Assembly: GCA_037179385.1 (NCBI GenBank)
Contig: CM074185.1
Coordinates: forward strand, 13,338,866 to 13,402,865
Direction: 5' to 3'
Source: Holothuria scabra
Lineage: Eukaryota; Echinodermata; Holothuroidea; Aspidochirotida; Holothuriidae
Length of the DNA stretch: 64,000 nucleotides
Shown: piece by piece, positions 7,566-62,329 of the stretch
Numbering within the stretch: position 1 is the stretch's first letter
Layout: each line of letters starts with the position of its first letter
The notes under the pieces: generated by a model
Seen by the model: the letters and a program-made list of their open reading frames with translations, nothing else
The model's database searches: none
Told to the model about the DNA's origin: nothing
Program-made: the position numbers and the translations under genes

Positions 7566-9376
7566 TATCGGAAATTTAATAATTCACTTCTAAGAAATGA
7601 TGGTTATCAAGAACTGGTTAAGAATGCTGACACTATTATAGAGTATGCGTGTCCTCTCTACAATAGAAATGTTTTATTATTAATTTACCTAGAGATAAAA
7701 TTCAATTCATTATATCAGATCAACTTTTTTTGAAACTTTGTTGATGAAGGTAAGAGGTAAAACTATTTCGTATTCCTCATACATGAAAAATTTAGAGAAC
7801 GAAAGGGAAATTTTTCTTGTTAATGAAATTCAGCGGATCGAAAATCATCATTCCCATGAAAATGCTGCAAATATGTGCTTGGAAAAACTTGAAAAAGAAT
7901 TACAAGATTTGAGGGAGAAAAAGCTTATGGGAAGTTTTATCAGGTCCCGTGTGGAATGGATGGAAGAGGGTGAAAAGCCATCTAAATTTTTCCTTAATTT
8001 GGAAAAAAGAAACTTTGTTCAAAAGTTATAAAGTCAGCTTACTAATGAGAACGGAGCTCAAATTTATGATAAAGAGGGGATTCAAAAAGAAGTTTACGAC
8101 TATTATAGAAAACTTCATACATCCAAAGATCATTCCCTGATAGATATAAATTTAAAGCAAGTTTTATCCAATTATAACATTCAAAAACTATTCAAAATCG
8201 AATCGGATGCATTGGGGGACCACTAAATTATATTGAGGTATACAATGTTTTGAAAAATATGAAAAATAAGAAATCCCCAGGTACGGACGGTTTTACCGTT
8301 GAATTCTTTAAATTTTTTTGGAAGGATATTGGACATTTTCTAGTAAGATCATTAAACTATGTTTATGAACATTCTATGTTGTCTGTAACCCAAAAGCATC
8401 GGGTAATTACTTTAATACCGAAGGGGGATAAATCAAGGCAGTTTTTAAAAAATTGGAGGCCTATTACCCTGTTAAATGTTTCGTATAAGATTGAGTCGGG
8501 TTGCATTGCAAATCGTTTTAGAAATGTGATGAAAAAGCTAATTTCTATGGATCAAAGTGGTTTTATTAAAGAAAGATATATAGGTGACAGCATACGTACA
8601 ATTTATGATATATTTAATTTGCGAAAGGAAGAAAAGCCTGGAATTCTTTTTGCCATCGATTTTGAGAAAGCGTTTGACAGTATTTCTTTAAGTTTTGTCC
8701 GAAAAGTTCTTGATTTTTTTTAACTTTGGTCCCTCGATTTTGAAATGGTTTGATACATTTTACTATAAAGTAACCTCATCTGTTCTTTCAAATGGTTTTG
8801 TTTCTCAGACTTTCCCTTTCGAAAAAGGATGTAGGCAAGGGAACCCTTTGTCCCCTTATTTATTTATTCTTTGTGCGGAGGTACTAAATATTTTGGTCCG
8901 CACAGATAACAATATCCATGGCGTCAAGATTGGTGACAATGAGTGTAAACTTGTTCAATGTGCAGATGACACCACTTTCTTTATTCAACCTAGTGAAAGG
9001 TCACTTTGTAAACTTCTTCACCAATTGGATTATTTTGGATCTTTTTCAGGTCTGAAGTTGAATATGAATAAATCCTTTTATGTTGGGTTGGGGGCTTTGA
9101 CAGGGTCACATTTACATTTTAATTGTTTACGCTTCTTGTTGCAATGCTGGAGACCATTTTACTTTGCTAGGGATTAAGTTTAATACAGATCTTGACGCCA
9201 TGGTTACAAAAAATTATGACAAAGCCTTTTCTAAAATGAAAAATATTATTAATTTATGGAGTAAGCGAAACATTTCCAGCTTGGGTCGAATCACCGTCGT
9301 AAAATCATTAATTTTGCCAAATTTTACATATTATCTAACAGCGCTTCCTTCCCCTGATAAGAACTATATTTCTTAG
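7566..9376 (+). pseudogene. LINE ORF2, linker and reverse transcriptase domain
   Basis: Reads through several frames. The linker (to about 8226) includes GKTISYSSY and WMEEGEKPSKFFLNLE. The RT follows with KKSPGTDGF, RVITLIPKGD, NWRPITLLN, DQSGFIKERY, FAIDFEKAFDS (catalytic Asp), GCRQGNPLSPYLF and QCADDTTF. The YADD box is CADD (8959-8970), a Tyr-to-Cys change. Lesions: a frameshift at about 7682-7720, TAA at 8029, loss of one G in the G run at 8214-8218, an extra T in the T run at 8713-8720, a shift at about 9105-9140, and TAG at 9374-9376. The thumb reads NISSLGRITVVKSLILP. Confidence 0.88.
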
Positions 9377-13288: not shown

Positions 13289-14533
13289 CACTCTTAAAAA
13301 AAGTGGGCAAATTTTGCCCAACTTTTTGACCAACACTGGGCATCTATTCAACAACCTAAACAGTTGGGCAAAACTTTTACCAACCAAATTTGGTAAAGTT
13401 TGAACCCAACTGTTGGGCAGGAGATTACCCAACTGTTTGGTAAATTAGCATTTAAAAACATACCCACTTGTTGGGCACTTCTTTTATTATGCTGTTGGGC
13501 AAATGCATTAACCAAATGTTGGTTATATGTTAATGATCTTTTCCTTAACCGTTGGTGCTTTCTTTACATGTTAGGTTCTAGGTTATGGCAGGGAGCTGTC
13601 ACTGCAGCTCCCTGGTTATGGCAACCCATCGGTCCCAGTTTAAAAACCCTGGCTTTATAACCTATTTGGTTTGTCACTGAGTTCCGTACAAGTACGTCCA
13701 AAACTATCATTTTTAAAAGGCACTGTATTTTTAAAAGGCACTGTAAAATGATGTGTGTAAATGATGTGATGAAGTCTTGTAGTTTCATCAATGCATAAAT
13801 AGAACACAAGGGCAGCATGAGAATTAACTGGTCCGTAGCTCTCATACACTGTTATCATGGTTATGAGACAGGTTTCTTGTTATGCCGAAATCTTTCGAAT
13901 AATAATAATATATAAATGTTCATTCGGACGTGAAAGAGAATATCCCAGATCCTAACCTCTCATTGGATAGCAGTTTTGCTCCAAATACGAATCATGGAAT
14001 CTCATACAAATGTGCTCTAGTTCGTAGTACTATTTAAAGAATTTTATGGAAATAGAGATCGATTTCATGGTCTAAAATAATGTACGAGGGTAGCCGTTTG
14101 ACCAATATAAAAGATGCCAAAGAGAATTTTCAGGTTATGGTACCATGTCTGATTATGAGAAGAATTGTGAAACAAATCGGGTCAAGTGTACTGTTGTTTG
14201 GTGAAAACACTGCAACCAATAATATACCCAACAAATTGGGAAAAAATTACCCAACAAGTGGGTAAAGGGAAAATATGCTCAACTGTAGAATAAAATCTTA
14301 TCGTTATTTTGACCAGTCAGTTGGGTATTACAGTGCACGCGTGCATGGAAGGGGAAATTTAACCATTTTGTGAGCAAAGATTGACCAACACTTAGGCAAT
14401 TACTTTTACTCAACAAAAACTTTGCCCAGCGTTTAAACAGTGCACCATTAGCCCCAAAGTTGGGCAAAGTTTTACCAACACATTTCATAAACTTCTTTAA
14501 CCAACGGATATTTTACCCAACGTTTTAAGAGTG
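13289..14533. mobile_element. CACTCTTAAAA-ended DNA element, TA duplication
   Basis: TIRs begin CACTCTTAAAA at 13289 and end TTTTAAGAGTG at 14533, flanked by TA on both sides. Both arms are packed with TTGGGCAAA / TTTGCCCAA words and variants (TTGGTAAA, TTACCCAAC) in both orientations. No transposase frame is visible, so it is non-autonomous. The same termini occur in elements at 33017 and 56590. A 26-bp hairpin with its own 7-bp duplication (13589) is inserted inside it. Confidence 0.78.
13589..13614. mobile_element. 26-bp palindrome with perfect 7-bp flanking repeat
   Basis: Arms CAGGGAGCTG and CAGCTCCCTG are perfectly complementary around a 6-nt loop (TCACTG). GTTATGG stands immediately on both sides (13582-13588 and 13615-13621), as a target duplication would. 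It is one of seven similar items in the window. No known superfamily can be assigned from 26 bp. Confidence 0.7.
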
Positions 14534-18210: not shown

Positions 18211-18625
18211 CATATCTCTGTGTGAAAAATTCAGCCCCTTGATAGGCATACTTATATGGAGAGAAGCCCACGGAAGCTCTGATGTAACAAGCATATCTTT
18301 GGATGAAAATAAGTCTCTGGGGAGGTATACTATTAAATAAATATTTTTTCGGTTAACGCAACTCGTTACTAACCTAACTTTGGGGGCAAATGGCAAGGGC
18401 AAATTCGAAAGGTAAATGAGCTCTCTTTCCCTCATAGGGCAGCCAATGATGGACCATCCCAACTGCTTAATTCGCTATCTATCGTGTCTCAAAGTTGACT
18501 AGCCACATTTGCCTCAAACGCATTCGAAATCATTTTTTTCATGGAACAACTTCTTGTATCTACAGTCTGAATTTCCAAACGTATAGATCACATAGTTAGA
18601 TGCAACGAGGCTCTCGACTAAAATA

Positions 18626-18835
18626 GAAAGCAAAGTCGGCTAGTTAACTGGTCCACCCGAAGATGCTTCAGTCCGACGCGCAACCGACTTGGTCGGCTGG
18701 GTAACCGGTTTTAGTGGCAAGCCTATGCCAAGTGGCCGTGACATCGAGCGGGACTTGAACCAATGCACATGTAAGACACAGTGGTACACAGCAGCTGGAA
18801 TAGACCACTCTGCCACTCGACGACCCTCGACTAAA
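18626..18835 (-). mobile_element. tRNA-derived SINE, family A, full length
   Basis: Read on the minus strand from 18835 it starts with a tRNA-like head: A box TGGCAGAGTGG (18816-18826) and B box GGTTCAAGTCC (18751-18761). The A-B spacing of about 43 nt suggests a class II (Ser/Leu-like) parent. A tail follows, ending GACTTTGCTTTC. A perfect 13-bp target duplication, CTCGACTAAAATA, lies at 18613-18625 and 18836-18848. No protein is encoded; transcription would be by RNA polymerase III with a LINE supplying the reverse transcriptase. A truncated relative is at 45109-45213. Confidence 0.9.
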
Positions 18836-19902: not shown

Positions 19903-22159
19903 AATAGGTCTATGTAGACGTACCAAATACATAAGAGACAATTTAATGTTTTTTTTTTAATAATCGTATTGAATCACACATATACACAGGCATGTTCCAA
20001 TTAGAATATGGTAACCTGGGTGATAGCACAGCATTCGAAGTTCTCTCTATCGCACGAAAATATGGCAGTTGGATGATTTCTATAGGAACGAATTTAAAAG
20101 AAGAGTCTCAAGTCTTTAAAAGTGTTAACATGTTAAATTGATACTTATTCAAAGCATATCAACCAAAGCATATCAACATATCCCCACATTAATGGACAGT
20201 CTTTTGTTTTTCTTTTAACTTTACAGCTTATTTTCTCCACAACGATCTCATATTATCAGAATGTGGTTTCATAAGCCGCTTGAGAAACTTGCAATTTTTT
20301 CTTTCCACTAAGTGAGTCGTATTCTATCAAATTATCTTTAAGGTCAACTCTATCATATTAACGTTAAGGACCTCAACAGTGTGAAAAAACAAAAGGAAAC
20401 AAAGCATTCCTTTTCAATTTGAGGAAGAGATATGACCTAAAACTCAATTTTGACACAGATCTACTAACTTTATTTACTAGTGATATCTCTAGAACTATAC
20501 TTCCGATTTGAATGGAAATTTAACCACACTATTTTCATTTGGTTTCTCTTTCACGGTTGGGAATTGTTATTATTATTATTATTTTTTTTTGCTTAAACTT
20601 CCCCATTAAAACATTGCAGGTAAATGATACAAAATTTGAGCTATTGTATGACTCACAGACTGTAGAAAGACCTATTTATCCTTGGAAGGACACACGTGAA
20701 TGAGACTAACACTTTGTCACGGTAAGAAAAGATTCACATGAAACTGAAAATAAATTGTTCAATCATTCCCACGGATTGCTGTCTATTTCTGTTCAAAGTA
20801 GATGTGTATTAACTGTACACCTACACAAAGGGAATTAGTGAAACAAATCACTAAAAACATCCATCAAGACCCTTACATTGGAAATTAATGACCTAAATTG
20901 GGTAGTGTTTATATAAGATTATGATCTGTGTGTTTTTATTTTAGTTTCGCTTTATTCTAAACTAGTCAAACTGTAATGCTCTTTATTGCATGGCACTGAA
21001 CAATAAAAAAATATCATTTTTTATTGAAGGGTGATAACTGCAAAAACTAACGAAAAACGGTGTGAGTAAACGTTTTGAATTGAAATTGATTGTCCAGTGT
21101 TTAAACAAACATGAACATTGTAATTATTTAAGAATTGAATAATTTATAGGAGGACAAAAAACCTATTGTCTTTCACCTACGTATAGGCAGATAAGACGTC
21201 CCTATGGTTTGTCCTATCTCAGGTTTAGACCTAGTAGGCAGTGCCTCAATTTAATGTAAAACTTAAGAATGATTAAAACAACCTATAGAATAAATCAATG
21301 TTCCCACCAAATTCCAGGGCTAGGTTTAAATGCATATTGAGTAAATTTTTCCCAAAATCTTTCTTCAATCTTTCACAAATTAACATTTTGATATACTGCC
21401 CTCAATTATATGAACCCTATTTTTACAAATGCATTCAAAAAGTGAACTTTCCTTTAAACATGAATGAGTAAGGCTGTTAATTTCTAGCCCTGACTCGATT
21501 TTGACTTGATTCTAACAACTGACACGAGACAGTTGTTAGGAGGACTGTAAATGGGACCGCAATGGGCTCAGTTTAACTCTTTCTCAGAGCGGATTTTCAA
21601 TTTAGCCGACTCCTCAAAATGAAAGTTTTGTGAAACTGAAAAGAACAGGGTTGCAGGGATTTTCAAAAAATTGCAAACGGTCATATGTAAATATTTCTGA
21701 CGATTTATGAACTTTTATGGAAGTATTAGGGTTCGTCAAAATGTCTTTTTCCTTGCTAAGCTGCAGAATGTACCTCAAAGATTCTGACCGTTAAAAATAA
21801 GGATTATTCTGGACTGTTCTCATTCGTTGACAAAACAATCTTCAGTAAAACTTAAAAAAATCCTACAAATCCAGACACCTACACCAAAATGCCAAAAAAA
21901 TGAAGAAATATGTTTAAATATCACTTTTTCATTAGGTCAGCTAAAATTTCAAACGAATTACTAAAACAGACAATACATCGGTCAAAATAACAAATTTTAA
22001 ACATGAATAACATCCACGAAACCTGTTTTGTAATTTGGTCTGCTTTCCTTATTTTTAAAGAAACGTAATTAACTTACAGTAATTGATGCTAATTTTTGTA
22101 ACATTTTCGTAAGTCGAGTTGTTCTTCAAAAATCCGTTTAAAAGAAGAAAAATTTTCTA
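19903..22159. other. AT-rich non-coding DNA
   Basis: No gene. Contains a small TTA-rich run near 20567-20590 and a 9-bp-stem hairpin at 21512-21539 without flanking repeats. Confidence 0.4.
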
Positions 22160-22163
22160 TGAG

Positions 22164-22890
22164 GGTCAAAATTTATTATCCCCCGTAGGTGACGAGTAGA
22201 AGAGTTTGATCTTTTTGTTATTTCAAGAAGCCCTTATTATGAGGGATTAAATTCAAGATCTCTCATACACACTTCCACTATGAAAGTTGGTTCAATGTTT
22301 AAGATTGAAAAATAATAAATATCTCCATCTGAAACGCTAAATATATTCAATGCTCTGTTTTAGTAAATTGAGAAAACCCCGACTATGACCATGAGGGTTA
22401 AAAACCAAGATCCCCCATAGATGCAGCGATAAGGAAATAAGTATTCAGTAATCAATGAAGTGTACAGTATACTATGAGGGATAAACCTCAGGATCCTTCA
22501 TACAAAATTGCACAATGAAAGTTATGCGGGTCAAAATTTATTATCCCCCGTAGGTGACGAGTAGAAGAGTGATCTTTTTGTTATTTCAAGAAGCCCTCAT
22601 TATGAGGGATTAAATTCAAGATCCCTCGTACACACTTCCACTATGAAATTTGGTTCAATGTTTAAGATTGAAAAATAATAAATATCTCCATCTGAAACGA
22701 CGCTAAATATATTCAATGCTCTTTTTTAGTAAATTGAGGCAACCCCGACTATGACCATGAGGGTTAAAAACCAAGATCCCCCATGGATGCAGCGATAAGG
22801 AAATAAGTATTCAGTAATCAATGAAGTGTACAGTATACTTTGAGGGATAAACCTCAGGATCCTTCATACACAATTGCACAATGACAGTTA
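22164..22890 (+). repeat. tandem duplication of a ~364-bp unit holding palindromic modules
   Basis: Two head-to-tail units, 22164-22527 and 22528-22890, about 97% alike by eye (a 2-bp loss, a 3-bp gain and roughly ten substitutions). Each unit contains four copies of a ~29-bp module whose ends read ATGAGGG and CCYTCATA (for example at 22239, 22391 and 22474). The module also occurs at 49.4-50.5 kb. Confidence 0.88.
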
Positions 22891-26274: not shown

Positions 26275-27329
26275 GTCACAACACGCACAGCAGATTGATG
26301 GAGCACTGCTGTTTCATTTTTTATTACTGTGACCCGAAAAGCGTGTATATGCTACTGATACTGATCTTTAATATAAAAAACTAAGCGTTCAGTTTTCTTC
26401 TAATGTCCACAACTTTTTACAACTGTTTCAAAGGTAGTGGCCTTCACCAGGCTCCACGGATTGGTGAATTGAATCTAAATCACTTGAGTTGCGGTGGGAA
26501 CGTAGCTAGACATAATAAACTGAAAAAGTAATTGAATTGGTGCGATAATTTCCTTCCCCCCCCCCCCTTCCTTTCAAAATAAGAATGATAGGGAAAGGGT
26601 GCTTTATCCGTGGAGTATAGCTTCTTATCATTAGCAATTACTAATTGCGCTCAACATGGACCAAGTTGGTTCAGGTAGTAGCTCCATGCTACCTTATTTT
26701 ATCTTGCTTGCTCGGTATTCACTATGATAAAAGAGAATTGAAAGACGTTAAGAAATAGGCGAAAGGTTACATCAGTTCATGTGAGAGATCGAATTATTCG
26801 TTACTTTTAGCGGGGAACTGTTAAGACAATCCCTGCTTTTACTAGAATTTGAATTCGGAGACCATTACACGACCTGCACGTTGGCGAAGTTAGGCAAATC
26901 ATCAATTTCAAAATCATAATGTGACCGGTAGTGAGATTTTGAGTGATTATGAAAGACTGCCGAGCTTGAGTAATAACAGAAACCTTTACGGCTACATACA
27001 CTTTGAGAAATGTAAAAAGTATGATTTAGCGTAACTGCTGAACATCCGAGTCATTTCATAATTATTACCGGTACACACGTAATCCAGAGGAACACCTAAT
27101 TATGGTTGTAAATGTACTTGCCAGCAAAAACAAACAAACAAACAAACACCATGCACGTATGTCAGATCTAGACTGAACATCACCGAAGGATAATTACGTT
27201 GACCACGCCCCGTAGTCAGTTTGGGGGATATATTCCCCATCCTCCAGTCCTCCGGGATCTAGACCCATGGCTACTTCACTTTATACCGGTGTAAAATTAA
27301 TAATAAGAATACCTACAATGATAAAAGGT
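26275..27329. other. non-coding, simple tracts
   Basis: Contains a C run near 26558-26570 and a short (AAAC)n at 27128-27148. No gene seen. Confidence 0.4.
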
Positions 27330-27540
27330 GGAAAGTAGTGATAAGAACTTTTTTGACAAAAGTGGTTGACAGTCGCTACAAAAATGTTGACATAATCGCG
27401 GACTGAACAGTGACTCTGTTGCAACTCCCTGGTCAATCATAATCACTGAGTTGTGATTTTTGTGACAGACAGTGGTAACCCTGACAAAATTGTGACAAAA
27501 GTGGTGAGTGGTGACAAAATTGGTTGATTTTAACAATAGT
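27330..27540. repeat. degenerate GTGACAAAAGTGG-type minisatellite
   Basis: Words such as TGACAAAAGTGG, GTGACAAAATTG and GTGGTGACAAAATTGG recur several times with imperfect spacing; the inverted form TTTTTGTGACAG also occurs. Likely an old internally repetitive element. Confidence 0.45.
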
Positions 27541-30500
27541 GGGAGTTGCTTCGTTTGTCACACAATTTGATGGTCATGTTTTCACTGCATGAGTGATCAG
27601 GCTATTGCGCTAAAAGTTAAACTATCCTATCCTAAACAGGGGCGCAGTAGATTTTTTCAACGGGGCGATATGTGGGGCGATGCGGGGTTTCAACCAGAGA
27701 CTTGCAACAGAACTTTGAGTGTTTGAGTGAAGGACGGGGTTAATCATGACAAATACACAAATTGTGCAAATGTCGTGCATGTCAAGTCGAAGAGCGAAAC
27801 CCAAAACGGGGTACTGGTGGGATCCTGGGGCAAAGTCCATGTGAAATTCAGAGGCCGAGGCCTAAAGCTCATGGGGTTTAATGCTCCAGAAGCCCGATGA
27901 AGACTTTTAAGGGTTACAATATCAGATGTAATGTTCTTAGACGCTTTTACATTTATACACTAATAAAAAAGTTAAAGGTATTGATTGAAGTAAAGGTTGA
28001 ACGATTAACTGGCGTGCGAAAATTGTGGCAGTTTGAAAAACATTTTTAATAGACCCACGACTAGTTCTAAGGTACCCTCTCCCTAACCATGCAGGAACAT
28101 AGTTTGTGCTTGGGGAAAATCTGAAAAGAATGGGCATACGCCCCCATCTCCCCACTATTCAACGGTAGTAGTACCACTGAGACGGGACAGTGTATACCTT
28201 GACCATTGCGAACGAAGCGAGTAGACGTTTTGCATTAGAACTCACGTTTCAACAATCCAATTAACATTGAGGTGGTTTTTAAAGATAAAACCAGAATGCA
28301 AGGCATTCATACTCGCGAATGAGACGGTCTAACGGTTCTAGTGAAATTGACAGAGTTGCTAAATTTTAGCCACTCCCTGATACGAACAGGTAGTAGATGG
28401 TGAATTTGTTATGATGAGGAGGTTTGCGCATTTCAGAAAAGGATATCAGTATTGAAAATTTATACAGGTGTATTTATGTGAGGTGAGGGAAACAGAAATG
28501 TTTATGCTACAAGCTCGACGTTTAGAAAAGTACATATGAGTGATACGTATATATGATGTTAAAATTGACTAAACAAAACAGGTGTGGATGATATTTTCTA
28601 CTAGATCTAGAAAACAGACGTGTTTAGATTGCAGAAGAATTGTTTTATTAATAATTCCCGACCGTAGCCAAAACTGTCAGAATTTCACACATATTATTGG
28701 TAGTTCAAAATATCAAAATTTCCTCACGAATGACAATTTCATTTTTTTAAACTTCCTTAGTGTTCTCAGTATTGTTCGAGGGCAGTGCTTATTACGGTTC
28801 GGCAGTTCAACCGGATCACCTGTATGTATATGCATCGCATGATCACCAACATAGTGAGCATATACTTTCAGATCAGAAGAGATGTAACTTAGCAATCATC
28901 TCGAGTGGCTAATGAATAGAGAGAGATAACTACGCAGTCTTTTATTTTGCTACTCCCTCGTCAGAGATCTCTCTTCCCATTCCTACTATAATTGTCAACA
29001 ACATAAACAGTACCGGTATAAAATTTCTCACCTTCCTCTTCTTTCTTTGGTTGGATAAGTGCGCAGCTAGAAAGTCTTTCCCTTACAGTATGGTTGCTCA
29101 AAGGAACCGTTTTAAATTTGTCTTACAGGATTCCTAAATCTAATTATGCCATGCCGCCAAGCACAGCCACCAATGAAAAGAATCTAATGTGAGAATATTT
29201 AGAAAATGTAAAACAAAAAAAAAACTTGGGTTGAGGTTAACTAAGTTATTTAGATGCGGCTAAGCAAATAAAGCCCTGCCCATGGCCCATATTTGACTTT
29301 CCACTGAAACACATCAAACTCTCGAAATGGCCTTTTTAAGCCGCGGTAGCACTTGATATCATCAACTGTATCACATGTCGTTCGGCTGATCATGTGGTCA
29401 CCGGCAAAGCAAGCGCATATTGGTAAGGGTGATTTAAGTTTCAGTTGAAACGTCTAGGTCAGAAGAAAACTACGCAGTAACTATTGCGCAATTTTCGCAT
29501 CCGGGAGACTACGTTATCTTATCCGTTCTCTATTCCTAACCCTCTGTGACGGTCTTCCATTTTGAACAAAATAAAATATAACTTAAGTTTGTCGCTCTTG
29601 TTACAGTTGTAACTTCCTTGGACATGAAAAGAAATCACCCGTTCAATGTATTTTCTTACAACAACGCCGGAACTTTCACGTCAAAAGATTGCTCGGATGT
29701 TTCAAATTGTAAGAAAAGAAGGGTAGCGACCATGTAATAAAGAACGGCAGTTGACAAAAACTATAGAAAGGGATTCTGAGAACCCCATATAGTCGCTCCC
29801 TGGTAGTTCCAAGAACCATGTAATTGAAATATCCCTGAACTAATATGCCTCATCGTGTGGTGAAACCAGAGACATCCTTAAATAAATTATCTGTTTTCAT
29901 GGTCAACGCTTTTTAATTTACAAACATTACAAAGTAACAAAACCAGCAAGGCACAGAATAAAAACACTGTAACAAGTCCATAAAGCGGCTACTATACTTC
30001 GCATTCGCTCGTAACAATAGAACCAATCCAACCAAAGAGAACGGTGAACACGCTGAGTTTGTAAGTTTGGGAAAAAATGAGAGAAGACCATGAAGACACA
30101 TACATTATAGCTGACTGCTATGATGACTTCCTGGTGTTTCAATACAAGTTTGGGTGACTATTTTCAGATTTTAAGGGGAAAGGACATATTTATGTAAAGT
30201 AAAAGTCGGATCTGCGTTGGAATTTGACAAAATTTTCATGTGTAGAAAGCAAGTTATGCTATCCGGGCTGATTATCGTGGACACTGTCCTACTTTTTTAA
30301 AGTTAGGGAATTATCCATATTTGTCGGGATGGCACACCTCTTGAACATAAACTGGATTATTGCATACTATGTATCACAAAAACTTTATTTTCTATCAAGT
30401 CCTCCCGACTCTCTGGCAAAAAGCCGTTCGACGAGACCAAAACTTACGCGTTTTGACTTTACGCCAAAACCTTTCCTTCAGCATACTAGATCTTAATACA

Positions 30501-30914
30501 CACATTTTACGGCCCAAGTGCAGAAGTACCTTGATTCTAAATACCCAGTTCATTAGTCTACTGTACACAAGGCTTAGTTACAATTTCAAGTTCCGCTTGA
30601 ATTCAGTACGGCCGAAGTAGAAACGTAATACAGGCTACTACTTACATCACTTGCTTTTCACGAGTTCAAGTTTATCTTTAAAGAAAGGAATGAATGGAGG
30701 AGTATAAATTACTCAAATGAATCCTTTAACACGCACCATCGGCTTTGATTATGAACAGCTGCATACAGTACGACCACGATGCTGTTACGTAATAATTTCA
30801 TGGCAGGATGCACACGGTAAGGGTGACAAAAGAAGGATACATCAGATAAAGCAAGATAAAGGTCGAAGCTAATTGTTAAAACTCCGACCAGCTTAGGCCA
30901 ATTGTTGGTCATAC
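27541..30914. other. non-coding, possible hAT-like end at 27637
   Basis: CAGGGGCGCAGTAGATTTT at 27637 looks like a hAT-type terminus, but I could not find its partner. The rest has only short frames without features. Confidence 0.35.
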
Positions 30915-30950
30915 CAAGGAGGTTCTACCTTGTACCGTAGAACCTCCGTG
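30915..30950. mobile_element. 36-bp palindrome of the CAGGGAG type, aged
   Basis: Arms CAAGGAGGTTCTAC and GTAGAACCTCCGTG pair with one mismatch around an 8-nt loop. The flanks GTCATAC and GTCAAAA agree at five of seven positions. Placed in the same group as 13589 with lower confidence. Confidence 0.5.
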
Positions 30951-31093
30951 GTCAAAAAAGGGGGAAGAAATCAAAATCTGATATTTCTCCGATATCGAAA
31001 AAGTCACCGTGACGTTCAACTTCAATATGATTACAAGTCACGTAGTAGCCTTATAGCACAGGAGGAGTACTGGCCCTGTGCCTAGACTCCAAT

Positions 31094-35337: not shown

Positions 35338-35344
35338 ATCTCTC

Positions 35345-35370
35345 CAGGGAGTTGCTAGAGCAACTCCTTG
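35345..35370. mobile_element. 26-bp palindrome with perfect 7-bp flanking repeat
   Basis: Arms CAGGGAGTTGCT and AGCAACTCCTTG (one mismatch) meet at a 2-nt centre. ATCTCTC stands directly on both sides (35338-35344 and 35371-35377). It has the same terminal wording and duplication length as 13589, 46765 and 61368, but different inner stem bases. Confidence 0.72.
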
Positions 35371-35377
35371 ATCTCTC

Positions 35378-36362: not shown

Positions 36363-36510
36363 ATTTTAATATTAAGTAGGCTAATAGTAATATTAAGTAG
36401 GCTTATAGTAATATTAAGTAGGCTAATAGTAATATTAAGTAGGCTAATAGTAATATTAAGTAGGCTAATATTAATATTAAGTAGGCTAATATTAATATTA
36501 AGTAGGTAAT
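36363..36510 (+). repeat. 21-bp tandem repeat, about 7 copies
   Basis: Unit TAATATTAAGTAGGCTAATA plus G, repeated about seven times with a few changes (one TTATAG, the last units with ATTAA). The open frame across it is an artefact of a 21-bp, frame-preserving repeat. Confidence 0.95.
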
Positions 36511-39350
36511 ATACCTGTTACTTTACATATGACGCAGTCATGAACGCGAGGGATGCTGTCCTACTTTGGTCTGTATTTTCAACATCACTTTATTTAGTAG
36601 AACTGTTTGGTCACCAAAATTAATTTTACATTTGACTTATGAAGTGATTATAAAGACAATTGTATGAATTTGAAATAATTCGTATAATTTTCTTGTCGCA
36701 ATTCCCTGGAAGTTAGACGGAGCGGCATTGCTACGATGTCTCCGTTTGAACTGCTTTCAGTGAAGGAATGACGTGTACAGTAGTGTAAGTGCCGGGTTTG
36801 GCGCAGCGTTCAGCAGTATAAAGTCATTATGTACGGTCCATTGCGATCGTGTACAAGCAATGTGACCGATTGAACGTATAAACAAAAAGAATTTCACATA
36901 ATGTCGTACAGACCGATCGAAGGCAAAGTGCAATCAAACCTCAAGTCCGAATTTTCGATGCAAATCTCCTATTTTACCATACGTATAAACCATTATAGGT
37001 TTTCGATTGGCATAGGCCAGCTGAGGTCAAACGTGAACGTAGCTAGTGTACATTAACTGCACGTACATTCGCAGGTTCACTTCATTCCGGACAATTATTC
37101 TAAATCAGAGACAAATTTAGTACTACACACTTGCTGTACTTTTTTCGGACAGGTTTGTCAATCCTCGGTGGCAGGTAGGAAATTGCAACAAGTGCCTTTG
37201 CACGGGTATAGGCCCTACTAAAAAGTAGGACCCTGGTACCAAATCGCCATACCCGTCGGGTACCTGGTGTTACACTGACTTAAAAGATTAGAACATTTTG
37301 TTAGGCATGCTCCATATCAGACATGCAAAATAATAGTTACAGCTGTTTTGGAGAGGTGATGATCACATTCCCAAGTTCAAAACATTTGATTTGCCACAAG
37401 GTTTTATCATCTCCTTTTGTTTTAAATCAAAATGACAAGTAAAAGAAACGAGAAAGGGCTATTGTTGGAACATCTATTGTGCCGTAAACACCACACACAA
37501 CAACCTTCACCCCTATTTTAAGTGTATTTAAATTTTAGTGGAACGACCGGACGCGTAGTGGCCATGATCCCAAAGAAACGTAACAGAAAACAGTCAAATA
37601 AGAAAATAAGTACTTTCCAAGGCCTCTATCAATATTTGATATTAAATTTTTGGACGCTTTCCTACTCTAAAAGCAAGCATCCTAAGAGCTCGAAGCTTCT
37701 CCTTTTAAAACATCGGTTTAAAAACATCAACCAATCACAGCCCTGTATTATGGTATTCTCTTGCACGTCCAAAATTACCGATTGTAAACAAAGGCGTCAT
37801 GCTCGTGAACTTCTCTCACAGTAATGCACAATGCACGTTGGAATTTTCACTGTAGGGTTATGTACGTTCTGACTGAGCAGGCCTCATGTTGACATCTGGA
37901 CATGGTGACATAAAGGTGTCATACCGCCGTATTAAGATCGTATACATGCAAGGCTCAGTTTACCTAGCATGCCGAATGCAACGGGCACTGTCTCTGCAAG
38001 CTGGGCGGGGGGATGTGTCTGCTAGTTTCTGCGTGAAGTACGAAGTGATTTTGAATCACCGTCGGATAGCTTGCTCGAACCAAGTGACGTACATTGATGT
38101 GTGAGAAGTAACTCACTACATGACGATAAAGCGCGATCGGGCCGCACGCTGATAAAAATTTCATCTTCAGGAAATAAAGTACAAACAACTTTCAAACTTT
38201 TTGATTTATTTATTTGGTACATATTAAGCACAAAACACAAACAAACTTACACATAATTTCTAGGGCTCTCTTCATTCTCAGGCCCCGAGAATGTTTACCA
38301 AATTAATCGTAAAAGTTTATTAATTACCGTGGGGAATAGCGTAAATTGGGTAATCCTTTTCGCATGCAAAATATTTAAGCTTCGCGTAGTAGATTTGGAA
38401 CCGGGTTATAGGATAGGGAGTGGTTACCCGTGCAAATTACACTAATTGCATCACCAATGAAAATATTGGGGAAGCAAACATAAGCATTGCCCTCCAATAA
38501 TTCCGGCAAATTTAAAAAAAAAAAAAAAAAAATAGGAGAATAACCAAAATGTAATAACATTTTGGGATATGGGGGGGGGGCTTCTTGAAAACGTCACTTT
38601 GAGTGTATGTGCATGTCATTGTGAGTGTGTATGTGTGTCTGGTTGTGTGTGTACAGTATGTAGGCCTACGAGTGCACTCGCTTTCATAGGGTGGATTGCT
38701 TATAGATCATTCCGGTCCTGGACACGATACAGGGTTCAACATAGTCTGTTGGAAATTTTTTTTCCCCCAAACCACATACCAGATCTACGTCCCTGTTGTC
38801 CGTCGGATTAACCAGGCAGTCCATCCTTCCCCTACATGGGCAACCAAAGACTAGCACAATGTCATGTCCATTGTGGTTACGGTACGTAACCACATTTTCT
38901 AGTTGACAATGTCATCAAAGGGGCTGGCCCGTCCATGTGGAAACTGACAGAGGGCGCTCTCATATGGGTACCGGTAGCATACCTTTATAGAGGTACCGGT
39001 TGCACGAAACAAGCGCAGCCGTAACGTCTGCATGGAAAATATGTCGCTTTTTTGAGCGTAGGCCAGACCTATATCCTCTCTGTTAAGTTCATATTAAACT
39101 GAATAATAAAGAGATTCCTGGGTCGCCGCTAAACATTTTCCCGGACAACACCCAAACCTAAACAAGATTTAACTGACGGTCATGTGGGTTAAAACAAGAA
39201 AAGAAGACTTGATGCCTAATATCTGAACAGAATGTGGTTCTATAGCAGCCTAGTAGCCAAGTCGACTTAAACCAACCCGAGCCAGACCTATTCTAGTGCT
39301 TCATACTCGGCATAAGCAATGAAGTAGGAAAAACAAGCAAATGAGACATT
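36511..39350. other. non-coding, nothing recognised
   Basis: An A run (38513-38532) and a G run (38571-38580) are the only simple tracts of note. No exon or RNA gene recognised. Confidence 0.35.
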
Positions 39351-43100: not shown

Positions 43101-44537
43101 TATACCTTGAAGACTTTTCCCGAGAAGTTGATGCAATTTTTAGGCAAATATTCGAAAGAAATGGGTTACTCTACACTGGAGAAGATGTGGAATGCTACCG
43201 TATGTAAAAAAAGGACAGTCTGCTTTTTAAAGAGCAATATTACGTACAATATATTGAGTTTCGTGAATTATCGTGACCCCCTCCCCCCACACATGCACAC
43301 ATGCAAACACCTCTTGGGTGGAGTTATCAGGGTCGAAATTCGGATAAAAGGAACCTCGGTGGTAAAAGAACAGTTGGTCAGTTAAAAGTACGTAGCACAA
43401 TCATTAAATATGACTAGACAAGCCTTTCGAGTATTTTTCCACAATCATATACACACCGGACTTAACAATGGCCCTTTCAGGAATCTTTCTACGGCATTTA
43501 TTTCTAACGGTTTATCTGTTAACAGAATCCGAACGCCGTTTCTTTTGCAAGACAGTCTAGTGCACGGTACTGCATACACTGCCTTCTTTGTCTTCATAGA
43601 GAGCTGTTATTTGCCAAATAGCAACTCATTGATCTTTACATAGCAAGCGGTGGATTCAATTGTGCAGAATATCAACAGGACAACTGAGCTAACGCAGCAG
43701 TTAGCTAGAATGTAGAATTTTTGGTCACACTATATCTTGCAATTGGCTTTCCCTTACTTCTTGATTTTTAAGAATAGAAAGGGTATACCTACAGGGTCGG
43801 AATAAAAAAAAAAATTGGAAGACTCGGAAATAAAAGCACTTCAAGTTGATATCCAATTTATGTTACTACGAAAACTAGTTTGCCTATCAAGGACTCTTCT
43901 CATAATCGTGTTAACAGGCAAAAATATAATACTACTTACTTTTGGCTGTCGACTTGTAGCATCGCAAAAATTTTAGGGGGGGGATAACTGGGGAACAGAG
44001 ATTTGGCGGTGGGAATTGCCAGCACTACTCATTGCGCACCAGATCAGCTGGCGAGCGGGTTGAGAAACGTACACAGTTTGTACAAAATAATCCCCAGACG
44101 ATTTAACGGTATTTTGAGAGCCTGGAAGAAATAAAAAGGGGACGTATTTTCATCCAGTTTACGCACTGATTTTGATAAGTACAGGAAAAGCGTAATTACA
44201 ACTTTTGTTTCGTTGTGATGATCGCCTTTCTCATCGCTGAAATGGTGTCAAAACACGACAAAAGGAACTTACGTCATCACGGTGACCGTTTGTATAGCGA
44301 ATGCAATCAATATATATAACTTTTGAGCTTTGAAGAGAATATAATATAATCATTTTAATGCCGTAAAAATACAGGTGAATTAGTGAAGTTCCTTTGAAAT
44401 AGTACTTCGCTTAAAAAAATTGAGTCAACTTATCAATTTCGGCCTAACAGTGTCTCATACAATTACCGTATTCCAAACCCTTATTACCTGATTTCCCCTA
44501 TCCTATAAAAAGAAAACATCCAACCGATCGTGAGGGA
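43101..44537. other. non-coding, nothing recognised
   Basis: Frames at 43107-43643 lack domain features. An A run occurs near 43805 and a G run near 43978. Confidence 0.35.
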
Positions 44538-44707: not shown

Positions 44708-45031
44708 TTTTGGGGGAAGTTTTGCTTTCTTATGGGGATAAGATGCAAAATGGTGCTGTCTTTGAAACATTTTGAACTTGCATGGCAGCCAACAGGGGTG
44801 ACGTTCCGGTCACTCGGTGAGGAGTAGCTGCAGTGTTTGTTTGGTGTTACTGATAGAAAGGGGAAGTACCGGCAATTAGCCTAATACGTTTTAATAGAGG
44901 TTTTGCAAGGTTTGATTGTTAGCTGTCCTGGAAAGTATGCCGAGTCAAGTGCAATAATGTATTTACCTATTGCGCTCCATCCTACTATTAAGATAAATCA
45001 GACTTCGGGTTGAGCCGACGGTCAGTCAGCT

Positions 45032-45062
45032 CAGGGTGTTGCTGAAGACCAGCAACATCCTG
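45032..45062. mobile_element. 31-bp palindrome flanked by perfect 11-bp repeats
   Basis: Arms CAGGGTGTTGCT and AGCAACATCCTG (one mismatch) with a 7-nt loop. GTCAGTCAGCT abuts both sides (45021-45031, 45063-45073). The inner stem resembles that at 35345. The 11-bp flank is longer than the 7 bp of the others. Confidence 0.6.
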
Positions 45063-45108
45063 GTCAGTCAGCTGGCAAGGTGTGTGTCGGACAGGCTCTT
45101 GACAAGCA

Positions 45109-45221: not shown

Positions 45222-47714
45222 CAGGGGTGGCGCAAGCGGGGGGGGGAGCATGCCCCCCGCCGGGGAACACTGCCCCCCGGTCGGCGGTTTCGTCGGGGAG
45301 GCCTAAAAAATAAAAAAAAAATAATAAAAACCCACAAGAACTGAAGTTACTGGATGGGTGATCTAGAACAGATTTTCTGTTTTGAAATGCTATTTTAATA
45401 CATATCGGAATCGATTTTAAATCACTTCTTAAGTCTGTTAAACCTCATTCTATGTGCCATGTCCTATCTCTTCCCCCGTCGAGGGAGACGGCAATTTTTC
45501 GGGGAGACCTACACATGATTAACGAAAAGGACTGACGTTACTGGATGGATGACCATGACTTTTTCTTTTTGAACTATTTTTTTTTTTGTAACGCTACCTT
45601 AATGCATATCTGAACCGGTTTTAATCACTTCTTCTCCTATCCCTCATCCCATCTTCAATCCGTGCGCGCTAGTTCATGCCTTCGTCGGGGACGGGCTACC
45701 CACCCCCTGTTGTCGAAAAAATCCAATTTCGTCGGGGAGACTTCATCTACAGACCCAAGATAAAAGATGTGGGTCTGTTGTCGCTCGGACGACCTTCTTG
45801 ATATTGCTTACTAGAAGACCATATTCTTCAAGGAAGCTCACAATTCCGAATTCTCCTTACAAAAATAAAAACGGACTAGGGGTTGTTCATGTGTGTGCAG
45901 TGCCCAATGGTCTGCCATCTGGCCTGCCCGGACAACCGAATTCTCACAAAGGTAATGAATATCGGCCATGTCGTTTTCAGCTACAAATAATGATAAACAG
46001 TGGTGTGAGAAAATCTCCCCATAATAAGTCTGACTGAAAATTTATTTGAAGGCATCTTGTAACGTGCCATATTTTCAAATACGTTGGCGGAAAAACAACT
46101 TATAGTCTTGAGTTCGGGCAGTCACGTTCAAAATTTCATCTGTTTAGTGGACCTTGCAATTGAATTCAACGAAGATTCTTAACGCAGTCAAAAACATTTT
46201 AGTATGTTTTCAATTCCGTTGCATAGTCCCCCCCCCGCCGAAACGAGACAAGACCATTACATCTAATTGTAGCAGTATCTTTTATCTGGTACTTTCAGTT
46301 TCTGATCATTAGCAAGTTGGATTTTTTCTCTTTTGAAGTGAAACTTTCATTTTAAAAGAAAGCTCAAATAACGACTGCTTCATTTCTAGTTACAAGTCCG
46401 GGGAATCCCATTCCGACTATCTTAGGGGTTAGATTTCTTAACAATTTTCTTTACGCTCCGCGTTAACTGATGGTGGCGCTCCGCATAGGTAGTGTTTTAG
46501 TCGAACAGATAACTGAACAAAACAATGCATGTATGTAAATTATTCTTCGTTTAAGGCAGTATTTTGAATGAGTGAAAATATTTTTATTGCGAAAGAAATC
46601 TGAAAGTAAGGACTTCTTTAATTCTAGTTACGAGCCCAGGAAATGCCATTTCCTGCTGACCGGGGGTTCTCCATTTTTCAAAAATATCTGTGCGCTTGAC
46701 TTAGATAATCTTTCGGGCAGGATTACATTTTTCGGACAAAAGAACAATTCTGCCCCTCCCAAACCAGGGAGGTGTGAGTAGGTGTACTCACACCTCCCTG
46801 CCCAAACTCAGCTGACACGCTCCCGTACGCCCACGACAATAAATAAAATATAAAGCTTCAAATATATGCGAAGCCAAAATTTTTCCTCAGGAGAATGCTC
46901 CAATATGGTCCGAGGGCCTAAATCTGCATAATGATATTCAGCAACCTCAACAAAACTACAGCTCACCCCTACTTGATTTTCCCCATGAGAACGTCAGATT
47001 CCTCCATAAAACCCCCAAACTGTCATAAAATTCCATTTTCTCCAATATTAGCATATAAGATTGTTAAAAATAGCCAAAATTTTCCAATTTCGATGGATAC
47101 TCCGCACAATAAATAACCAAAGCCAACTCTCTTGATCACCCGGCATACTACCTAATTTTGTCGTGAAAGGCATATCACTTAATAAATGAAACCAAATTTT
47201 CATTATAACCTTACCAAAAAAACAAATTTTCTTTCATTAAAATCCAAAATTTCTCCATGATGATAAGCTCTTAATTTTGAAAGATTCGTTCAAAAAAGGG
47301 AAAAACTTTCCGGGCGAACTTCTAGTCTTGTCTCAAAGCCTTAGTCAGTCAGTAAGTAGGTCTTGTACGATTCAATGCGTAACCCCCAAAGAATTTCAGC
47401 TGTCGCCCATGTAACGTTTTTGATTTTTCCCTTATGAAGGACAGATTCTTCAATAAACACCCAAATTTTTTTAAAGTACCAATGAAAGCCAAATTTCTTC
47501 CATAAGTTTAAATTTTTACTTCATTAAACTCCAGATTTTTAAGTATTTGTTAAAATGAAAGCCCAAAACTTCGGCGCCCTCCGCGCGTCTCAAATTCTGC
47601 AAAGTGACGTTCAACTGGCACATAACATCGCCTTTGTCGGGGCCTTGAAATTCTGTCCCCCTGTCGGGGAGCTTGCCCCCCCCCCTTGTCGGGCAAATCC
47701 TGGCGCCACCCCTG
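45222..47714. mobile_element. 2.5-kb hAT-like non-autonomous element
   Basis: Ends CAGGGGTGGCGCAAG and, inverted, CAGGGGTGGCGCCAGG; flanks AGTGGGAG (45214-45221) and ATTGGGAG (47715-47722) agree at seven of eight positions, as expected of the 8-bp hAT duplication. Inner GC-rich words (GTCGGGGAG) repeat at both ends. Within the left part a unit of about 210-230 bp is repeated (GTCGGGGAG-like starts near 45290, 45500 and 45730, each followed by TTACTGGATG and ATTTTAAATCACTTCTT-like text in the first two). A diverged 65-bp repeat links 46971 and 47421. No transposase seen. A 36-bp palindrome is inserted at 46765. Confidence 0.75.
46765..46800. mobile_element. 36-bp perfect palindrome with perfect 7-bp flanking repeat
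   Basis: Arms CAGGGAGGTGTGAGTA and TACTCACACCTCCCTG are fully complementary over 16 bp with a 4-nt loop (GGTG). CCCAAAC abuts both ends (46758-46764, 46801-46807). It is the cleanest member of the group and would form a very stable hairpin. Confidence 0.78.
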
Positions 47715-55275: not shown

Positions 55276-55680
55276 ATGCTTTGCTCGCCCTCCTGATCAT
55301 ACCAACGGCTTATGTAAATCATTGAACCTTCTAAAACTAAATGACATAATAGTCTGAGTATTTCAACATTAACTTATCGTTTCTTGAATAACGCTCTGCC
55401 ATCACCTTTCTACAGCCTTTTCAAGAAAAAATGCTCGTTTCACTCGTACAGCACTAGAAATAGGTCACTCCTTCGACCTGTGTACGGGAAAATCCTCACT
55501 AGATACAGTTTGAGATATCTCGCTGTGAAAGTATGGAAACGCCTTTCAGGTCAGCTTAATCTTGCATGGATACCTTCAGTAAAATCTTTTAGAACTGTTA
55601 TACTAATAACAGCTCCTTGGTCTTACGGCGTTACAATGATAAACCTATACCTAGTATCCTCTAGTAACGTCCTAAGATAA
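55276..55680 (+). pseudogene. LINE C-terminal region
   Basis: Encodes the post-RT segment PDHTNGLCKSLNLLKLNDII, then in a shifted frame (55384-55680) ALPSPFYSLFKKK, YSTRNRSLLRPV and SLRYLAVKVWKRLS, which match the conserved tail of CR1/L2-like ORF2 proteins. Split by a stop and a frameshift around 55357-55384. Confidence 0.75.
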
Positions 55681-57957: not shown

Positions 57958-58109
57958 AGCCCGGAACCGTTGAGTACCACCGACCTCGGTTGATTGTTGG
58001 AAAGTAATTCGCCATCTTGTTTGTACGAGGCGTGAGTGTGAGGCGCAAACATTTTTTTTATGAATATGCAGGCTTACTTAGAAGTGAAAGGGAAAATTGA
58101 GTTTTGTAA

Positions 58110-58304
58110 GCGCTGTTCCCTATAGTGTAATGTAAATTCCCCCTAACCAGGTTGCCAGATATCATATGCGATGAGCGCTGTTCCCTATAGTGTAATGTAA
58201 ATTCCCCCTAACCAGGCTGCCAGATATCATATGCAATGAGCGCTGTTCCCTATAGTGTAATGCAAATTCCCCCTAACCAGGCTGCCAGATATCATATGCG
58301 ATGC
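58110..58304 (+). repeat. 65-bp tandem repeat, three copies
   Basis: Starts at 58110, 58175 and 58240, each GCGCTGTTCCCTATAGTGTA followed by a shared AACCAGGYTGCCAGATATCA segment. Two or three differences in total, so the array is young. Confidence 0.97.
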
Positions 58305-59724: not shown

Positions 59725-59888
59725 TTAATTATTACGGGTTTGAAGGCATGTTCTGGCAGCCCTTCAGTTAGTTCTCGTTAGAAAGGGGAAATTATCCCAG
59801 ACCATGTCCTCCAAATCTTAGTGCCTTTTCTTTTTTTCTCGAGATATCTCACTTCGTTACAAAAGCACCTACACTTTTCAACAAAAGG

Positions 59889-60308
59889 CGTGTACCCATT
59901 TGATCCAGGGAGGTGGATCTTGATCTACCGAGGTGGACCAACATCAGTTACCTTGATCGAGATCCGCGTTCCCATTTGAGTGAGCGCGGTAGATCAAACG
60001 TGTTTTATGAACACATTGCGCAAGTGCGAAAAGGTCACCGATGTTTACAAGTCGGCCTGCCATGCAATTCGTATCGATGTATCACAAAAACATATATGAG
60101 TGTAACCGGAGATCCAGGGTCACTTGATCTACCGATGTGTTCCCATTACAAACTTTGATCCAGCGCGGTGGATCTGATCTACCCCGAACGGTCGAACAAA
60201 ATCGGTGGATCTTGATCTTGAGTGAGTGTTGTTGATCTGCGTTCCCATTAGTGTTTGATCCACCTCGGTAGATCAAGATCCACATCCCTAGATCAAATGG
60301 GAACACGG
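59889..60308. mobile_element. 420-bp MITE with GATCTACCGAGGTGGATC theme
   Basis: The left end GTGTACCCATTTGATCCAGG and the inverted right end GTGTTCCCATTTGATCTAGG stay alike for about 50 bp, including GGATCTTGATCTACCGAGGT. The words GATCTACC, GGTGGATC and GTTCCCAT recur throughout in both orientations. No coding capacity; target duplication not clear. Confidence 0.82.
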
Positions 60309-61360
60309 CTAAAGCCACAGAAAGTTGTCTTATGGGCACACTGGTGCCTCAGATTTCTTTTGGTTTTTTTTCATGAATTGAGTGTCCTGTTTTTGATCGA
60401 AATTTGATAGTGTTGGAATGTTTGAATATCTTTCCTGTATATCTATCATTACGTCATTATGTTAGGGGTATAGCAAACAAAGTTACGTAATGTTCCATGC
60501 AGCGGTATCTAAATTGTAAATGGGTTGAATGTAATGTCATATTAATATTGGCGGGATGACGTCACAGATTTACCACTAATGTTATGAATAAAACTCAAAA
60601 AAAATTGCAATTGCACTTTGAAATTTTAACGCCTTCTGAATACTACATCCTGCTGGGATGCAGTTTTCATATCGTGGATGAGAAAATTTTTATGAATATT
60701 TTGAAATTAATGATTTTTTCTCCAAGAAACCCCTTAAATATCATGTGGAAAATAGACTCAGCAGCGATCTGTTTTTTCTTCTCATTAAAGACCGGAAATT
60801 AGTTCAACACACTGATATGAAGCAAGTATAAAGTATTGTGACGTCGCTTGTCACTTCTCCTTGACTTTAAAACTCGTAGTTTTCTCTCTTTTCTGTCAGG
60901 GTCTAGCAACTCTAGAATTTTTACTCGGGAAAGGAAATAACATGATTCACCAAACAAAACTTTACACTTGCAACTTTCCGGCATGACCTTCTGCCACACG
61001 TACGCTTTGACTTGCCAGGCTCTTATCATTACCTATAGTAAATATTTAGATAATTACTTTAATCTTCAAAACATTTCAACGAATTGGTACAAAGTCATTT
61101 TAAAGAACTGAGATAAGATCGTTTACCATGTTCGCAATTTTACACAGTTCAGTTGTGGTGATTTATCATTTAATCAACAGCCTTTGTTTTATTTGATTGT
61201 GCGGTGACGTCAAAAGGTTACCGTAAGTTCATTCATTCGGAAACTCTCAAGTTCTATGATAAATGTACACAATTATAATTGTAGAGACTTTATCATTTCT
61301 TCCCCTGTTTGAAGTGAATTTTCAAAGAGTATGAAGCATTCCTAACACGTTCGCTCTTTA
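60309..61360. other. non-coding, nothing recognised
   Basis: Short frames only. Confidence 0.35.
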
Positions 61361-61367
61361 AATAAAC

Positions 61368-61397
61368 CAGGGAGGTGCTACTAATAACATCTCCCTG
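61368..61397. mobile_element. 30-bp palindrome with perfect 7-bp flanking repeat
   Basis: Arms CAGGGAGGTG and CATCTCCCTG (one mismatch), loop CTACTAATAA. AATAAAC directly precedes (61361-61367) and follows (61398-61404). Confidence 0.72.
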
Positions 61398-61454
61398 AAT
61401 AAACGACCTCTCACGAATCTGAAATGGGAGAATAAATGTGACATGAAGTAGAAC

Positions 61455-61478
61455 CAGGTAGGTCTTAACACCTCCCTG
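61455..61478. mobile_element. 24-bp palindrome of the same type, aged
   Basis: Arms CAGGTAGGT and ACCTCCCTG (one mismatch), loop CTTAAC. Flanks GTAGAAC and GTGTAAC match at five of seven positions. Lies only 57 bp from the previous one; the outer CAGGGAGGTG and CACCTCCCTG also form a larger inverted pair (61367-61479), an alternative reading. Confidence 0.5.
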
Positions 61479-61479
61479 G

Positions 61480-62329
61480 TGTAACTAGATGGAGATCCAT
61501 GGAATCTTTAATTTATGCTAATCCAATTAGATTGATTCCAAAGTGGACAATAAATCCTTTATTTGGGGATTATTGAACTAAAGGGCGTGGAATTCCTTTG
61601 TTTAATATCAAGGAAATCTCTTTTATACCAACGGTGACTCAAACAAAAGGAATTATTTGGAACTATGCTGTCATGTGTAAGTAGTTGCCAACAAAGAAGT
61701 GCCAAACACTGTCCCGACATCTCAAACTGGCTATTGCCAATGATCACAATGATCCTGGCTATGAACTCGGACCAATTTTGATGATTTATGCAAATGAGCA
61801 AAAGAAGAATAAGACTAAACATTGCTATCGGATTTTCATTAATACTCGCATTCGCTCACATGGTCTAAAAAGGCACACCTAAATAGAGTAAAATGCAGAG
61901 AACAAGACAAGTAGGTTGTAATCCGCGTCCAAAAGCGTGCAAGTCGTGAAATTAATTAACATCTTCAAGCGATTGGCAATATTAAGGCAAGGGACAAATT
62001 ACCCGATCTGCTGTTCGACATCTAGCAGACGACTTACCAGGCTTGAACTTAGTTCCTATCACCTTCTAATACCTCATCTTTAAGCCTATTGAGTCATAAA
62101 GAACAACACACAAACGATATTAGTGTCGGCAACTACTTCGTCTCAAAGAAAAAGTTTCTCGATGGATCTCCATCTAATCACACATCCCTGGTAGCACAAA
62201 ATGTTTCTATCTGGATGTTGCAGTGTGACGTTGGTAGTCTCACACAAAACGTATGCACAGTAATCATAGATTGTTGTCAGGTTGTAGAATGATTGACCGT
62301 GAGGTTGCTAGTTAATTGGCAAGTTAGAG
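61480..62329. other. non-coding, nothing recognised
   Basis: No features beyond short frames. Confidence 0.35.

Follow-up and report, generated by a model that had tools for sequence, protein, structure and literature searches.

Hairpins and neighbouring features of the window

The window, which is the whole 64-kb stretch of DNA that was analysed, contained a set of short palindromic hairpins with similar termini, and the core hairpin was located at 46765-46800 (Table 1). The DNA folding of this hairpin gave a z of -7.6. The first-pass annotation had reported four hairpins whose termini were of the CAGGGAG type and whose 7-bp flanks were perfect, and all four were confirmed as stated. The numbers that it quoted for three of them (13589, 35345 and 61368) belonged to real hairpins and marked where the hairpins, rather than the flanks, began. 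Its length range of 24-36 bp was narrowed to 26-36 bp for these four; the 24-bp hairpin was the one at 61455, in which the flanks differed at 2/7 positions. The target duplication was 7 bp in all four hairpins with perfect flanks (46765, 13589, 35345 and 61368).

Table 1. Positions of the hairpins, their flanking duplications and the single ends in the window.
Feature	Position	Strand	Description
7-bp duplication CCCAAAC, left	46758..46764	.	adjoins hairpin 46765-46800
36-bp hairpin	46765..46800	.	two perfect 16-bp arms with GGTG between; read here as two putative 18-nt transposon tails, joined
7-bp duplication CCCAAAC, right	46801..46807	.	adjoins hairpin 46765-46800
26-bp hairpin 13589-13614	13582..13621	.	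GTTATGG perfect on each side
26-bp hairpin 35345-35370	35338..35377	.	ATCTCTC perfect on each side; one end is CTCCTTG
30-bp hairpin 61368-61397	61361..61404	.	AATAAAC perfect on each side
24-bp hairpin 61455-61478	61448..61485	.	flanks GTAGAAC/GTGTAAC, 5/7 match
36-bp hairpin 30915-30950	30908..30957	.	flanks GTCATAC/GTCAAAA, 5/7 match
31-bp hairpin 45032-45062 (CAGGGTG...CATCCTG)	45021..45073	.	11-bp flank repeat GTCAGTCAGCT, not 7
Weak 25-bp hairpin 26811-26835	26804..26842	.	flanks CTTTTAG/CTTTTAC, 6/7 match
Decayed 35-bp hairpin 43597-43631	43590..43638	.	flanks GTCTTCA/ATCTTTA, 5/7 match; left boundary set by eye
Decayed hairpin, right end 55619	55588..55626	.	flank GTCTTAC; left duplication unrecognisable, left boundary by eye
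Decayed 29-bp hairpin, right end 28379	28351..28386	.	flanks without match; left boundary by eye
Single end CAGGGAGTTGCAAC (27431)	27414..27438	-	flank GATTGAC; no partner found
Single end CAGGGATGTGTGAT (62190)	62173..62197	-	flank GTGCTAC; no convincing partner

Two older members (26811 and 43597) were added by arm or near-flank searches, which gave nine paired hairpins in 64 kb with lengths of 24, 25, 26, 26, 30, 31, 35, 36 and 36 bp. The hairpins ranged from perfect to decayed, which suggests activity over a long time. The 11-bp flank repeat of the hairpin at 45032 may have resulted from a 7-bp duplication followed by slippage of GTCA, or it may reflect a different event.

Several other features of the window were observed. 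The ends CAGGTAGGTCTT and CACACATCCCTG (61455-62190) were 736 bp apart and carried the flanks GTAGAAC and GTAGCAC (6/7 match); this pairing was possibly a longer non-autonomous copy, or a coincidence, and it was set aside because 61455 was already paired with 61478. The segment 45093-45218 was 88% identical to 18608-18735, and since the repeat began 31 bp past the hairpin at 45032, it did not provide an empty site. An inverted pair of 56-bp segments (59886-59941 and 60255-60310; 91% identical) carried TTGATCCACCGAGGTGGATC-like units, and one copy contained CAGGGAGGTGGATC, which scored as a hairpin end and was partnerless.

The window also contained a broken non-LTR retrotransposon at 6834-9174, with the endonuclease (PF03372) and reverse transcriptase (PF00078) in separate frames. 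Thiolapillus sp. was the sole organism named among the 120 listed of 1307 relatives of this LINE reverse transcriptase fragment, perhaps as host DNA in a symbiont assembly. Tandem repeats were also found: a 1.3-kb TTTC tetranucleotide array at 909-2220 (98% matches), in which all six frames were open, a 366-bp repeat at 22158-22890 (2 copies, 95% matches) and a 65-bp repeat at 58109-58303 (3 copies, 96% matches).

Abundance, flanks, lengths and shared sequence

A terminus-blind scan of the 64-kb window was performed for palindromes of 22-44 bp with 7-bp flanks matching at at least 5/7 positions. The scan returned 36 matches, including seven whose two ends together differed from CAGGGAG at no more than three positions (13589, 35345, 46765, 61368, 61455, 30915 and 45032). 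The same scan of 30 order-3 Markov controls gave a mean of 15.5 matches and 0.03 with CAGGGAG-type termini. Seven of the other 29 matches fell within a 21-bp array at 36367-36511 and four were shifted registers of family hairpins; the 18 left were near the control. The array, which was composed of seven copies of the 21-bp unit TAATATTAAGTAGGCTAATAG, was partly palindromic and inflated the counts of palindromes with flanks. A stricter scan yielded nine matches, namely the four named hairpins and five in this array, and the four controls yielded 2, 0, 0 and 1. When facing end pairs of 18-36 bp were considered, perfect 7-bp flanks were observed in 4/112, with 0.01 expected. As a look-alike control, we used 18 stretches of viral contigs that matched CAGGGAGNTG-N(2-24)-CANCTCCCTG exactly, of which 4/18 were near copies of one sequence. 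The 7-bp flank duplication was found in 0/18 of these stretches, and the longest flank match was 3 bp.

These results contradicted the explanation that the hairpins are chance palindromes, and agreed with the earlier claim that such a set would be hard to get by chance. The shuffled controls, the number of perfect flanks and the viral-contig look-alikes also argued against functional hairpins without a tie to transposition, and no support for either explanation was found; a search of Rfam at the gathering threshold gave 0 matches. Together, we regard chance or functional hairpins as very hard to credit.

The flanking 7-mers tended to begin with GT and to end with AC (GT-NNN-AC). The dinucleotide AC was directly outside 8/18 ends of the nine hairpins, whereas 6.7% would be expected in front of CAGG or CAAG (p about 1e-5). 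The unpaired ends with the six best scores, picked on arm sequence alone, were five right ends (27431, 28379, 55619, 62190 and 36708) and one left end (59906, flank TC); with these ends added, AC was outside 11/24 (p about 1e-7). For the four hairpins with perfect flanks alone, AC was found at 3/8 ends (p 0.013).

The lengths of the hairpins stopped sharply at 36 bp. No perfect 7-bp flanks were observed among the 846 end pairs of 37-200 bp (0/846). At 201-20,000 bp, 10/82,868 end pairs had perfect flanks, with 7 expected, and none of them had an exact CAGGGAG at either end. Among end pairs of 18-120 bp, five had at most one flank mismatch, and each of these was no longer than 36 bp. In addition, no paired ends lying further apart, up to 8 kb, with good arms and a perfect flank were found in the window. 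The ceiling corresponds to 2 x 18 bp and is indirectly consistent with a cut with a long stagger, but it is 1 nt more per side than the 17 nt of the P element.

The arms and interiors of the hairpins were then compared. At arm positions 8-12, the agreement was 76% within a hairpin versus 56% between hairpins (nine hairpins, permutation p 0.003). The arms of one hairpin thus matched beyond the shared terminus, which indicated that both ends came from one source. Averaged over every pair among 11 hairpins, the similarity was 0.281, which was above that of 300/300 controls in each of four shuffling schemes, including one with the outer 10 bp fixed. Because the similarity was high even with the outer 10 bp fixed, the shared sequence reached deeper than 10 bp. 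We interpret this sharing as reflecting a terminal repeat of some 13-17 bp that the parent elements would have had in common, and common descent of the hairpins would fit as well. The best pair among the 11 hairpins was 61455 with 61368 (0.583), a value reached by 18, 118, 54 and 109 of 300 controls in the four schemes, so no hairpin pair was significantly copy-like among the 11 hairpins under the four interior-shuffling schemes. Another pair test, which used one way of shuffling with 10 bp per arm fixed and had little power on the shortest hairpins, likewise gave no significant pair. The hairpins at 61455 and 26811 could be aligned over most of their length with a score of 0.5. The right tails of 61368 and 55619 agreed at 17/19 first positions and then diverged; this agreement, from one pair only, is in line with a tail length of 17-18 nt.

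Possible origins of the hairpins

Previous studies have described an unusual cleavage by the P transposase. According to excerpts of these reports, the transposase cuts 17 nt inside the inverted repeat (PMC7776569), and excision leaves 17-nt 3' overhangs that are non-complementary (PMC8951532). When end joining follows the excision of a transposon, the overhang sequence stays between the target duplications, as described in part of PMC3878927. Four features were observed directly in the window: the hairpin anatomy, the 7-bp length of the duplications, a preference for GT-NNN-AC and a ceiling at 36 bp. On this basis, we consider it probable that a cut-and-paste DNA transposon of the P superfamily was once excised at the site of each hairpin, and that the hairpins are healed breaks and not mobile units. 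Insertion of an element at a GT-NNN-AC-like site would first have created a 7-bp duplication. The transposase would then have excised the element with a long stagger of the P type, about 17-18 nt inside each end, so that a 3' tail derived from the transposon terminus (CAGGGAGNTGCT...) would remain on each broken end. Finally, host end joining would have united the tails with trimming. Since both tails would bear the same inverted terminal repeat, the product would be duplication-tail-reversed tail-duplication, that is, a palindrome of 24-36 bp. Such hairpins would not move, and each would mark the former position of an element. The subterminal transposase binding sites and internal repeats of P-superfamily elements would have been lost from them.

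Two joined 17-nt tails would form a palindrome of at most 34 bp, bordered by the duplications. The largest hairpins were 35, 36 and 36 bp, and from this excess over the 34-bp maximum we infer an 18-nt stagger or a base or two of filler. Several observations counted against excision scars. The hairpin at 45032 had an 11-bp flank repeat, and in the four cases with perfect flanks AC was present at only 3/8 ends (p 0.013). A density of nine scars per 64 kb, with no parent among them, would mean that a very large number of excisions had taken place. The interior similarity also weighs against scars, and it could be explained by a longer terminal repeat or by common descent of the hairpins.

The parent element was searched for in the window. 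We screened 111 of the 117 window ORFs of at least 75 aa against Pfam (E 0.01); the six ORFs of the TTTC array were left out. Within this set, no P transposase was detected (THAP domain, RNase H fold or GTP binding). Eleven families were matched, of which only the LINE domains were convincing (E 1e-9 or better), and the other nine had E values of 0.001-0.01. No full-length parent transposon was recognised within the 64-kb window, and these two negative results also count against scars. Viral contigs gave 92 matches to GTNNNACCAGGGAGNTGNT, and none had a facing end with the same 7 bp within the sequence covered, which extended up to 9 kb. To search for empty sites, the surroundings (about 1 kb) of 14 sites were compared with the window by blastn, and no second repeat copy spanning a hairpin was found.

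The hairpins might instead be minimal mobile units of 24-36 bp that were inserted as such by a transposase acting in trans, in the manner of ultra-short MITEs, which we regard as unlikely. To our knowledge, mobile hairpins of this size would be the smallest eukaryotic mobile DNA. Such units would account for the clean duplications, the shared termini and the varied degrees of decay, and the mean interior similarity above 300/300 controls and the alignment of 61455 with 26811 (score 0.5) would also fit. However, copies of one unit would be expected to be alike throughout, whereas the similarity of the best pair (0.583) was reached by 18-118 of 300 controls. Units of this length would be too short to contain the internal sites at which the transposase binds in P elements (excerpt of PMC7776569). 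Pairing of two ends separated by 26 bp would presumably be barely feasible. The absence of perfect-flank pairs at 37-200 bp and a ceiling at twice the P stagger would likewise be unexpected. If the hairpins were themselves mobile in this way, a transposase would insert palindromes of just two joined ends and the arms would stay complementary as the sequence drifts, which we likewise consider unlikely. The first-pass annotation had proposed a minimal mobile hairpin or a terminal remnant. Its assignment to one family by the termini held, and its terminal remnant is close to an excision scar, but the minimal mobile hairpin is less likely given the 36-bp ceiling and the lack of a copy-like pair.

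Extreme internal-deletion derivatives, in which aborted gap repair after excision spared only the terminal repeats, would likewise place terminal repeats between duplications. Aborted gap-repair synthesis followed by end joining has been described after P excision (excerpt of PMC8951532). Deletions of this kind would be expected to cover a broad range of lengths, but perfect flanks were found in 0/846 pairs at 37-200 bp, and the five pairs that differed at no more than one flank position in the range of 18-120 bp did not exceed 36 bp. We judge such derivatives quite improbable. A deletion derivative with zero synthesis is the same event as a scar. The ends of hAT elements often begin with CAGGG, and the CAGGG termini of the hairpins would fit scars or mini-elements of another superfamily, such as hAT. 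The motif of hobo (hAT), GTNCGNAC, also resembles GTNNNAC, as tabulated in part of PMC3276498. In the same table, the hobo target duplication is 8 bp, the length associated with hAT, whereas 7 bp was observed in all four perfect cases. Moreover, hairpins in hAT excision form on the flanking donor DNA (excerpt of PMC3878927), so scars keeping 12-18 bp of both ends would be unexpected, and an origin from another superfamily appears quite improbable.

If the hairpins are excision scars, as we consider probable, the genome could be read for where transposons were, not just where they are. Each scar would show where an element had inserted and into which target, how the transposase had staggered its cut and how the break had been repaired. 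Repeat annotation based on alignment would probably miss marks of 24-36 bp. The long P-type stagger would be visible from sequence alone, outside a laboratory system, and it would become testable whether excision, beside insertion, is a major source of small genomic palindromes. If one scar per 7 kb held genome-wide, an extrapolation from one window, the number of scars per billion bases would be of the order of 100,000.

Comparison with known transposons

MITEs are generally much longer than 24-36 bp. Like MITEs, the hairpins are non-coding inverted repeats with target duplications, and their interiors share some sequence on average. In contrast, no hairpin pair was significantly alike, as copies of one element would be expected to be.

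The terminal sequence of the P element differs from the hairpin termini. The duplication of the P element is 8 bp, whereas the sites found here have 7-bp duplications, are natural, partly old and dense, and have no parent in view. The hairpins would resemble the excision products of the P element, in which overhang sequence lies between duplications, as described in excerpts of PMC7776569, PMC8951532 and PMC3878927, and with inverted repeats these products would be palindromic. The zebrafish P-like element (THAP9 transposon) has short terminal repeats of 13 bp, close to the 13-17 bp proposed here, but its duplications are 8 bp (both from an excerpt of PMC7776569).

Natural insertions in D. melanogaster provided a further comparison, based on the tabulated part of PMC3276498. 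In this table, 1360 (P superfamily) has a modal TSD of 7 and the target GTTNAAC. The P-element has a TSD of 8 with the target GTCCGGAC, and hobo has a TSD of 8; hopper and transib2 have a TSD of 5, and pogo and the S-element have a TSD of 2. Among the seven TIR families tabled, 1360 alone joins a 7-bp TSD with a GT...AC-type motif. Galileo, which also belongs to the P superfamily, has TSDs of mostly 7 bp and the consensus GTANTAC (excerpts of PMC4168063 and PMC2775673). The P superfamily is associated with duplications of 7 or 8 bp and a palindromic target motif edged by GT...AC. In the window, the duplication was 7 bp in 4/4 perfect cases and the flank repeat of 45032 was 11 bp, and AC was found at 8/18 ends, including 3/8 in the perfect cases. 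The 7-bp duplication and the GT-NNN-AC motif of the hairpins are akin to those of 1360 and Galileo (PMC3276498, PMC4168063 and PMC2775673, each in part). In contrast, 1360 and Galileo are complete elements, and the terminal repeats of Galileo are very long, whereas only ends with a proposed repeat of about 13-17 bp were found here.

Our literature search covered titles and abstract openings and few subscription journals; dense natural palindromic scars were absent among the matches listed, which is a weak indication of novelty. The mechanism is already known for P elements. What appears to be new is a dense and partly old set of scars, standing without its parent, in which the duplications are 7 bp and the terminal repeats are short.
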